Below are positions 4,258 to 7,135 of a stretch of 64,000 nt of DNA, piece after piece. Positions within the stretch are counted from its first letter, which is position 1. Every line of letters starts with the position of its first letter. Both the position numbers and the translations under genes were made by a program. The stretch spans positions 1,392,640-1,456,639 of the forward strand of contig NZ_JABFAP010000001.1 of NCBI RefSeq assembly GCF_017168255.1, in the 5' to 3' direction. The notes beneath the pieces were generated by a model that had not been told where the DNA came from, made no database searches, and saw only the letters and a list, made by a program, of their open reading frames with translations. The stretch is from Agrococcus sp. KRD186. GTDB taxonomy: Bacteria > Actinomycetota > Actinomycetes > Actinomycetales > Microbacteriaceae.

Positions 4258-4309
4258 CGGGCAGCGCCGAGACGCATCCCCAGCGCGACACCGGGCTCGC
4301 CCAGGTGCT

Positions 4310-5542
4310 TCATGGCGAGAGTGCGCCGATCGCTACGACGTTCACTCCATCGGCTCGACGATAGGACGCCCCGGTACCCGTGACGACGGTCAGCACCGGA
4401 GCGTCGCGCTCGTCGACATTCTCGGCGAACGCCTTCAGTGATGCAGCCGCCATCTCCACCGGCGCCTCGCCCGCGCCCAGCTTCACTTCGAATGCCGACC
4501 ACTGCCCGCTCGGGAGCTGCACGATCGCGTCAACCTCGCGGCCGGCGGAGTCACGCGCGTGATACACCGAACCGCCGAGCGGCTGCGTCAGCACCCGCAG
4601 GTCATGAACCACGAGCGACTCAAAGAGTTGGCCGGCGAATCCCGGATCCCGCCGAAGCGCGGTCGCATTGCCTCCGACCAACGCCAATGCAAGCGACGGG
4701 TCGCAGAGTTGTCTCTTCGGCTCCTTCCGCAGCGTCGCCGTCGAGCGCAGGTGCGCTGACCACGCCGGCTGGTCCTCGACGACGAAGATGCGGGAGAGCG
4801 CGTCGAGGTACTCGCGAACGACATCGCGCGAGAGTGAGGTCTCATCTCGGGCGAGCGTCGAGACAGTCGCCTCGGTGGCTATCGAACGCGCCAGGGCGAC
4901 CATGAGCCGATGCACGCGCCCGGGATCGCGGTCCTTGCCTGCGGTGCGGATGTCGACCGAGGCGACCGTGTCGGCGTAGTCGCGCAGGTTTGCATGCACG
5001 GCGGAGTCAGGCAGTCCGACGAACCCAGGCCAACCGCCTCGTGCGATCCGAGCGAGCAGCGCATCGAAGTCGAGCTCGGCGGTCGACGCGCGCGGTGCCG
5101 ATCCGTTCAGCAGGTCAGCGACAGACACCGTGGCGTCCGAGTCTCCGCTCTCGAACAACGACATCGTGCGCATCCGCAGCCGCGCGAACCTGCCTGCCCC
5201 GGAGTGCCTGACCGCGTCGGATGCTGGTGCAGTCGATCCGGTGAGCACGAACTGCCCCCGCTCGGGCGCATCGTCGACCGCTCGCCGTACTGCGTTCCAC
5301 AGCTCAGGATGGACCTGCCATTCGTCGAGCAACCGGGGCCTTGCCCCCTCGAGCACCAATGCAGGATCCGCCTGGACCTGGCCCGCGACCGTCGGATCAG
5401 TGTCGACCCGAACGATGCTGGAGACGTGGCGCGAGGCCGTCGCGGTCTTGCCGCACGCCTTCGGGCCCTCGACGAGCACCGCACCCGCGCGCCCCAGTGC
5501 CGTATCGAGTTCGTGATCGGCGACACGTTCGATGTACTCCAC
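4310..5542 (-). CDS. AAA_14/DUF4143 ATPase with PD-(D/E)XK-like C-terminus
   Basis: The 410-residue protein has three visible parts. The first is an AAA module with P-loop GPKACGKT (26-33), Walker B LLDE (71-74) and a sensor-like FVLTGST (98-104). The second is a DUF4143-type middle region around WPGFVG (171-176) with a likely winged helix near 220-262. The third is a C-terminal domain with Glu309, Asp338 and E352-V-K354, spaced like a restriction-endonuclease fold (E...D...ExK). The family is widespread and its biological role is largely unknown. The GTG start at 5542 has a good Shine-Dalgarno (GAGGTGA). The gene stands alone between unrelated transporters, its upstream DNA is much more A+T-rich than the window, and that DNA carries five phased 23-bp repeats. 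These points suggest horizontal acquisition, but I saw no transposase or att site. Confidence 0.8.
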   Translation of the reverse strand: MEYIERVADHELDTALGRAGAVLVEGPKACGKTATASRHVSSIVRVDTDPTVAGQVQADPALVLEGARPRLLDEWQVHPELWNAVRRAVDDAPERGQFVLTGSTAPASDAVRHSGAGRFARLRMRTMSLFESGDSDATVSVADLLNGSAPRASTAELDFDALLARIARGGWPGFVGLPDSAVHANLRDYADTVASVDIRTAGKDRDPGRVHRLMVALARSIATEATVSTLARDETSLSRDVVREYLDALSRIFVVEDQPAWSAHLRSTATLRKEPKRQLCDPSLALALVGGNATALRRDPGFAGQLFESLVVHDLRVLTQPLGGSVYHARDSAGREVDAIVQLPSGQWSAFEVKLGAGEAPVEMAAASLKAFAENVDERDAPVLTVVTGTGASYRRADGVNVVAIGALSP

Positions 5543-5559
5543 AGCTTCACCTCACCACC

Positions 5560-5674
5560 GCCGTCACACTGCGACGATCTCGGTCGTCAATTCAGCAGCA
5601 AACCAGTCGTCAGATTGAAAGCGTATCAGTCGTCAATTTGCCGCCCAGACTGTCGTCAGTTCGAACGGCGCGGA
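5560..5674. repeat. Five tandem 23-bp repeats (iteron-like) upstream of the AAA ATPase
   Basis: Copies begin at 5560, 5583, 5606, 5629 and 5652, exactly 23 bp apart. Only the first seven bases are conserved: GTCGTCA in four copies and GCCGTCA in the first. A T/C-rich trinucleotide usually follows, and the remaining bases of each unit differ. This pattern (fixed spacing, conserved core, free spacers) is typical of cooperative protein binding rather than of slipped duplication. The array fills most of the 141-bp gap between the purine permease stop and the ATPase start. Confidence 0.8.
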
Positions 5675-5683
5675 GCATCGGGC

Positions 5684-7135
5684 TCACGCGAGCAGCGCCT
5701 CGATGGGGCCTCGCGCGAAGAAGACCACGAACAGGATCGCGACGATCCACAGCAGCGGCGAGATCTGCTTGAACTTGCCGGAGACCGCGTTGACGAGCAC
5801 CCAGGCGATGAAGCCCACGCCGATGCCGTTGGCGATGTTGTAGGTCATCGGCATCACGACGATGGTGAGGAACGCCGGCAGCGCGATGCGGAAGTCGGTG
5901 AAGTCGATCTCGGTGATCTGCGCCATCATCAGCGCGCCCACGACCACGAGCGTCGCGGCAGCCACCTCCAGCGGCACCACGGAGGTGAGCGGGGTCAGGA
6001 ACATCGCGGCCAGGAAGAGCAGGCCGGTGACGACCGAGGCGAGGCCCGTGCGGGCGCCGTCGCCGATGCCGGCGGCCGAGTCGATGAAGACGGTGTTCGA
6101 GGAGGCGCTCGCGCCACCACCGGCCACCGCGCCGACGCCCTCGACCACGAGCGCGCGCTTGAGGCCGGGGAACTGGCCGTTCGGGTAGGAGATGCCCGCC
6201 TGCTTCGCCAGCCCGGTCATCGAGCCGATGGCGTCGAAGAAGTTCATGAACACCAGCGTGAAGATGAACATGGTGGTGGCGAGGATGCCGATGCGCTCGA
6301 AGGAGCCGAACGAGAACTGGCCGATGAGTGAGAAGTCGGGCAGCGAGAAGATCGCGGTCGGCAGCGCGGGCGGGTTGAGGTTCCAGGCGTCGGGGTTCGT
6401 GCCCAGCGAGGGGCCGACCTTGAAGATCGCCTCGAGGATGATCGCGACCACCGTGGCCGCCACGATGCCGATCAGCAGCGCGCCCTTGACCCGCAGCGCC
6501 AGCAGCGAGCCCATCAGCGCCAGCGCGATGATGAACACCACCGTCGGCAGCGAGGTGATGGAACCGCCGTCGCCGAGCTGCACCGGGGGCGCGGTGATGC
6601 CGGTCGTGCGCACGAAACCGGCGTCGACGAAGCCGATGAAGGCGATGAACAGGCCGATGCCGACCGTGATCGCCGCCTTCAGCGGTGCAGGCACGGCGTC
6701 GAAGATCATGCGACGCAGGCCCGTCAGGCCCAGCACCACGATGATGATGCCGTTGATGACCACCAGGCCCATGGCCTCCGCCCAGGTGAGCTCGCCCACC
6801 AGGCCGAAGGCGAGGAACGAGTTGATGCCCAGGCCGGCGGCGAGGCCGAAGGGCACGTTGGCGATCAGGCCCATCGCGAGGGTCATCAGCCCGCCCACGA
6901 GCGCGGTGACCGCCGCCACCTGGTGGTTGGGCAGCCAGCCGCCCTCGACGTCCACCGCCGCCTGATCGGCCGAGAACCCGCCGATGATGAGCGGGTTCAG
7001 CACGATGATGTAGGCCATCGCGAAGAACGTGACGAGACCGCCTCGCACCTCCTGCGTGACGGACGAGCCGCGCTCGGAGATCTTGAAGAAGCGGTCGAGG
7101 GCGCTCTTGGGCGCGGCCTGCGTGGTGGTGGTCAT
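5684..7135 (-). CDS. NCS2-family (AzgA-like) purine permease
   Basis: Proton-coupled uptake of a nucleobase, most likely hypoxanthine, guanine or adenine, across the cytoplasmic membrane. The 483 residues begin with a polar N-terminus followed by the family motif [13 protein letters not shown] (about 36-48), and the protein has about 12-14 membrane segments. The second conserved block [19 protein letters not shown] (about residues 285-303) is the NCS2/AzgA signature region. The ATG at 7135 is preceded by GGAG five bases upstream. The gene is monocistronic, bounded upstream by the gltA terminator hairpin. The exact base transported cannot be read from sequence. Confidence 0.88.

Follow-up and report, generated by a model that had tools for sequence, protein, structure and literature searches.

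A solitary ATPase-nuclease gene of Agrococcus sp. KRD186 was found to be preceded by five phased 23-bp repeats, and across the relatives of this gene the repeat sequence varies with residues of the encoded protein that are predicted to read DNA. The gene was analyzed within a stretch of 64,000 nucleotides (the window). What was observed by computation comprises the array and its conservation, the private sequence at each gene, the covariation of this sequence with the recognition helix, and a mobile unit made up of gene and array. These observations are best explained by a protein that binds the operator array before its own gene and regulates its own expression, a reading that we consider probable. 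Taken separately, physical binding of the protein to its own array is inferred with high confidence; negative autoregulation is an inference favored on balance, with activation not excluded; and a phage-defense or toxin-like role is inferred only tentatively.

Both Pfam domains of the window protein, AAA_14 and DUF4143, scored above the cut-off (105.1 and 41.7 bits), and residues 1 to 404 of 410 matched the PADLOC profile PDC-S01 (E = 7e-68). The Walker residues G26..GK32 and the Walker B pair D73-E74 were invariant in an alignment of 39 relatives, and the nuclease residues E308, D338, E352, and K354 were unchanged in all 39. A purely regulatory role is unlikely because the nuclease residues are invariant in these relatives. 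In the AlphaFold model (mean pLDDT, 92.6), helices 207-219, 227-233, and 239-251 form a predicted winged helix, of which the third is the recognition helix with residue 239 as its first residue. The model also places the E...D...ExK residues on a helix-strand-strand-strand-helix core at residues 300-375, which meets the test for membership in the nuclease superfamily. A PD-(D/E)XK fold is thereby supported from alignment and model, and nuclease activity is inferred. The gene stands alone, reads in the same direction as an upstream NCS2-type permease gene, and converges with an ABC permease gene (Table 1). The initial annotation had described a lone ATPase gene whose product carries a P-loop, a winged-helix-like middle, and a restriction-endonuclease fold, the last to be checked by structure prediction. 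All of this agrees with the present analysis, including the confident model, except for one residue of the proposed E309...D338...E352xK354 pattern: D338, E352, and K354 stand, but the conserved glutamate is E308 and not E309.

Table 1. Features of the gene, its product, and its upstream array, in positions of the window
Feature	Position	Strand	Basis or remark
AAA_14/DUF4143 ATPase-nuclease gene, PDC-S01 candidate	4310..5542	-	ORF, Pfam, PADLOC; 410 aa, GTG start
Walker A, G26-P-K-A-C-G-K-T33	5444..5467	-	G26, G31, K32 invariant
Predicted winged-helix recognition helix, residues 239-251	4790..4828	-	AlphaFold helix and covariation; specificity residues R239, D240
Predicted PD-(D/E)XK nuclease core, residues 300-375	4418..4645	-	Invariant E308, D338, E352-x-K354; helix-3 strands-helix order
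Operator-like array of five 23-bp units, aligned to the family register	5550..5664	-	Unit 5641..5619 = GCAAATTGACGACTGATACGCTT
Core TGACGAC, most distant from the gene	5652..5658	-	Repeat search
Core TGACGAC	5629..5635	-	Repeat search
Core TGACGAC	5606..5612	-	Repeat search
Core TGACGAC	5583..5589	-	Repeat search
Core TGACGGC, one mismatch, closest to the start codon	5560..5566	-	Repeat search
Segment missing in congeners: gene and array, nothing else	4258..5687		Comparison with L359

On the forward strand, the cores read GTCGTCA at 5583, 5606, 5629, and 5652 and GCCGTCA at 5560, with a spacing of exactly 23 bp. The repeat-chain score reached p = 0.0002, the floor of 5,000 shuffles, none of which equaled the array. 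GC content is 53.5% in the array and 71.4% in the window as a whole; of 21,301 sampled 99-bp stretches, just 11 were as low as the array. The exact phased pair of cores occurs three times in the 3.1-Mb genome, always in the array; with one mismatch allowed, one further pair was found in the array and three elsewhere. Exact and one-mismatch scans gave no additional array copies beyond chance that could serve as targets in the own genome. The five phased repeats and the A+T-richer DNA before the gene, both pointed out in the initial annotation, were thus recovered, with one mismatch in the copy at 5560, and the outcome that it had named as refuting, a motif equally dense at random places in the genome, did not occur.

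Next, we examined the upstream regions of related genes, drawn from bacterial genomes of many phyla and including some metagenome bins with uncertain names. In the first set, the 160 bp before each start codon were scanned for 6-mers that recur at lag 23. Such repeats were present in 83 of 96 upstream regions and in 2 of 93 control regions further upstream; other lags, multiples of 23 excepted, were found in at most 10 regions each. Newly fetched genes gave the same period in 59 of 62 significant cases, and in a tree of 209 DUF4143 genes the clade of the window gene had 23-bp-period repeats upstream of 103 of 118 members. The orientation of the array relative to the gene was constant in 77 of the 83 arrays, and the median distance from the last core to the start codon was 40 bp. 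Downstream regions contained a significant repeat array in only 3 of 72 cases, two of them at period 23. About a tenth of the clade members had no detectable array, and some arrays consisted of only two or three copies. The 23-bp arrays were therefore present at most homologues, the check that the initial annotation had proposed, and the outcome that it had named as refuting, arrays missing at close homologues, did not occur: both L004 and L005 carry arrays. At the upper end, the L332 array has 10 copies, and upstream of position 4001 in L011 there is a very long array of about 22 lag-23 matches, with masked N interruptions and near-identical TCACCCGCTGGACTTTGTCCGTT units.

In the same tree, a related DUF4143 clade showed periods of 22 and 23 bp (10 and 9 of 26 genes) and another a period of 32 bp (5 of 8), both on the basis of few genes, and no array period was found in a clade of proteins of about 395 amino acids. 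As far as can be judged from sequence, array spacing seems to be clade specific in DUF4143 genes. Seven loci from other DUF4143 clades (L104, L141, L129, L138, L155, L145, and L158) had upstream arrays with fewer copies and periods of 22, 24, 32, or 33 bp.

A circular alignment of the 83 arrays, built without protein information, revealed a unit scaffold, G-C-A-A-A-n-T-G-T-n-n-n-n-T-A-G-A, which scored 216 compared with 121 ± 3 for permuted columns. The units thus share GCAAA-n-TG...T-A, joined by a variable part, and within arrays the linkers have diverged and the cores are conserved. Slippage generates tandem repeats, so that chance or a simple functionless tandem duplication could be considered; this explanation is contradicted by the single period across phyla, by conserved cores among diverged linkers, by the shared scaffold, and by the covariation with the protein described below, and we give it practically no credence.

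The cores are private to each gene. The two paralogues of the own genome differ in their cores (TGACGAC versus CTGCAATCTCCGCCCTAG), and the six arrays of genome G110 have six different cores. Core similarity was 0.314 over 63 same-genome pairs and 0.299 over 10,152 different-genome pairs restricted to an equal range of protein identity (p = 0.38). Because the cores of paralogues differ within one genome, a factor shared by the whole cell cannot be their reader. The paralogue in the own genome (L083, G000:C1:2055329-2056573), also a DUF4143 gene, is 46% identical and has a four-copy 23-bp array with the core CCTGCAATCTCCGCCCTAG. In L092 (G110:C62:28418-36680), several DUF4143 genes lie in a row, at least two of them with different 23-bp arrays; this row of paralogues with private arrays includes CGGTAGCGT in eight copies and GCATTTTGTAAA.

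The core sequence was then compared with the protein. Similarity of unit positions 5-12 between genes, corrected for overall protein identity, tracked local identity at residues 234-247, with a peak at 237-245 (r = 0.232; 99% of permutations below 0.131), and D240 and R239 were the best single residues. Linker positions 17-22 gave no signal with protein identity (p = 0.44). A scan of all residue-base pairs by mutual information placed residues 359 and 360 on top; these pairs were discarded for gappy columns, and R239 and D240 were the best among well-filled columns. Rules derived from the initial 83 arrays were then tested on 110 newly fetched genes, which provided 64 arrays; the DNA register was frozen, and each 60% cluster contributed one representative. 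R or K at residue 239 went with G at position 7 in 29 of 32 training cases, compared with 5 of 16 for other residues, and in 17 of 19 test cases, compared with 1 of 20 (p = 5.8e-8). Among test representatives less than 60% identical to every training gene, the counts were 12 of 14 and 1 of 16 (p = 1.7e-5). Similarly, position 10 was G in 21 of 22 test cases with D or E at residue 240, compared with 7 of 20 for other residues (p = 3.9e-5). In phylogenetically independent pairs, taken from a tree built without the helix, 11 were concordant and 1 was discordant for either rule (p = 0.006), and control positions and residues were null in this test. Only two residues enter the code, and exceptions occur, such as L039, which has R239 without G7. 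Residues 239-240 are R-D in the window protein and P-E in the TCACCGGT clade. For an arginine located where a recognition helix begins, reading a guanine is textbook chemistry.

These results meet the covariation criterion for a self-recognized operator, in which the site sequence covaries with the DNA-reading residues of the gene product. In the absence of binding data, recognition of its own array by the product is strongly inferred from the covariation and the modeled helix. The covariation shows neither occupancy nor the direction of regulation. The initial annotation had seen in the array a binding site for the product or a partner and had named co-varying cores as support; the cores do differ from gene to gene and covary with the recognition helix, and the evidence favors the product. 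A host transcription factor or nucleoid protein could still bind the arrays, with the ATPase as merely the regulated gene, since direct-repeat arrays at promoters are ordinary operator architecture, and dedicated repressors of defense loci exist, such as RptR, which acts on three direct repeats (PMC12255303). Such a factor would have to accommodate cores that differ as much between paralogues of one genome as between genomes, that recur across phyla only among close homologues of the protein, and that covary with its own helix, and no conserved neighbor gene was found among 138 flanking proteins. We therefore consider a host factor highly improbable.

Regarding the promoter, -10-like hexamers clustered at three phases of the unit in 54 of 83 arrays, and sigma-70-like promoter scores were 7.1 inside the arrays compared with 4.9 in shuffled copies (p = 9e-10). 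The arrays of a gammaproteobacterial clade contain near-consensus -35 (TTGA..) and -10 (TAATAT-like) hexamers in neighboring linkers, so that a complete recognition unit separates the two hexamers. Promoter hexamers in the linkers flanking one unit suggest competition with RNA polymerase and hence repression, and binding most likely represses the gene because the array spans the promoter/leader region; an effect on transcription is supported solely by the position and orientation of the arrays and by their promoter-like elements. A consensus promoter scan of the GC-rich window recognized none, so promoter overlap for the window gene is an inference from its relatives. Near-consensus sigma-70 promoters with -35 and -10 hexamers in successive linkers, at a repeat distance of 23 bp, were observed upstream of L029, L034, L035, L038, and L041. 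A -35 to -10 repeat distance (6 + 17) would fit the 23 bp of the gammaproteobacterial arrays, but it was not taken as the cause because other clades use 22, 24, or 32-33 bp.

Alternatively, the array may be a tether or self-mark, on which an inactive nuclease is parked until it is released or redirected to invader DNA, with effects on transcription being secondary. The invariance of the nuclease residues in 39 relatives indicates that the protein is more than a repressor, and arrays can be long, as in L332. A tether, however, would not need the fixed side, orientation, and distance of the array relative to the gene, nor does it account for the concentration of promoter elements in the arrays, and we regard it as unlikely.

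In the preferred reading, autoregulation through the own array, the gene and its upstream array would be one self-contained module. The winged helix would bind the 23-bp units of its own array with one protomer per unit, the part GCAAA..TG..T-A being common to the family and the variable bases being read by residues 239-240. The array-bound protein would repress its own gene and keep the PD-(D/E)XK nuclease low until the AAA+/STAND-like domain senses a trigger that alters the ATPase; binding would then change, and expression would rise or the nuclease would be freed. Each copy may have diversified its helix together with its array, which would insulate paralogues from each other.

PDC-S01 is the fourth commonest prokaryotic defense candidate in a survey of archaeal and bacterial genomes, where validation is pending for most such candidates, PDC-S01 included (PMC12988326). 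The available part of that source describes it as a single gene with an ATPase fused to PD-(D/E)XK, like the architecture of the window protein, and as a candidate only, reporting no mechanism or validation and mentioning no operator array or DNA specificity; the array was found here. The initial annotation knew of no described system with this pairing in a common protein family, and likewise no description of arrays at DUF4143, COG1373, or PDC-S01 genes appeared in the literature searched, which comprised open papers, without preprints and with few subscription papers. Among characterized systems, the nearest parallel is RptR, the repressor of a restriction-modification/DarTG2 island, which also represses its own promoter through three direct repeats overlapping the -10 box (PMC12255303). 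RptR, at 9 kDa, is a small regulator whose single palindromic site is conserved across bacteria (PMC12255303), whereas in the present system the proposed reader is an ATPase-nuclease and each gene has a different site. Unlike in the RptR system, regulator and effector would here be one protein, with its own address for each copy.

The best whole-chain fold match was the Pyrococcus ATPase 2qen (PaBY2304; TM, 0.45-0.51; probability, 1.0), followed by STAND, RuvB, ORC, and clamp-loader ATPases. MalT and Orc1 bind repeated DNA boxes. STAND/ORC-type AAA+ ATPases with a winged helix (2qen, MalT, Cdc6/Orc1) resemble the window protein in fold but have neither this nuclease domain nor a private array before their own gene. 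Card1/Can2-type nucleases combine a winged helix with PD-(D/E)XK, and the Card1 and Cdn1 structures match the C-terminal part; however, the TM is low (about 0.2), and Card1 is activated by cyclic tetra-adenylate via a CARF domain that is absent in the window protein.

If the inferred recognition holds, it provides a first concrete handle on PDC-S01: the sequence upstream of each gene would reveal the DNA that its protein binds, and a partial binding rule is available for testing by an exchange of two residues. Private arrays would explain up to about 20 paralogues per genome without cross-regulation, and the family would offer a large natural set of orthogonal regulator-operator pairs. More speculatively, and with considerable doubt, the widespread ATPase-nuclease superfamily may consist of autonomous one-gene units with private address arrays, kept orthogonal by co-diversification of helix and site, in which the array restrains the nuclease and helps to sense infection or foreign DNA. 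The clade-specific spacings in this address-code reading are 23, about 22, and about 32 bp.

The genes for the ABC permease and the NCS2 permease adjoin each other in congeners, and in the closest one (L359; 94% nucleotide identity) the two convergent gene ends are about 20 bp apart. The 1.43-kb insert in the window comprises the gene, its array, and little else. This insert and the patchy distribution of gene plus array would suit a mobile gene for whose product the array serves as the site of transposition or homing. Nevertheless, the empty site showed neither a target duplication nor a terminal inverted repeat, and it contained no core motif. The junctions of the sites examined had no array sequence, the array is internal and one-sided, and mobility alone leaves its promoter-proximal position unexplained, which makes this a very unlikely function of the array. 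The 138 flanking proteins contained no recurrent partner or defense-island gene, only a few HipA, Fic, SoFic, and PDC neighbors, and a toxin-antitoxin operon was rejected on this ground and for the solitary gene in the window. An iteron replicon was rejected for an insert that lies between two chromosomal genes and is missing in congeners, and for a product in no known Rep family, and a CRISPR array for the 16-bp linkers, the register shared with the promoter, and the lack of cas genes. A phage gene family was ruled out by the few phage records, namely, 8 IMG/VR contigs and 7 unannotated fecal phage records; 246 plasmid records contained the family. In a decoy search, the two-core pattern matched more than 100 viral contigs, approximately the chance level for the collection. 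In one congener, a long direct repeat (CACTGAGCCGGTGCGCGCCCGCAGGGCG...) is present several times at the empty site (L363:930-1550).
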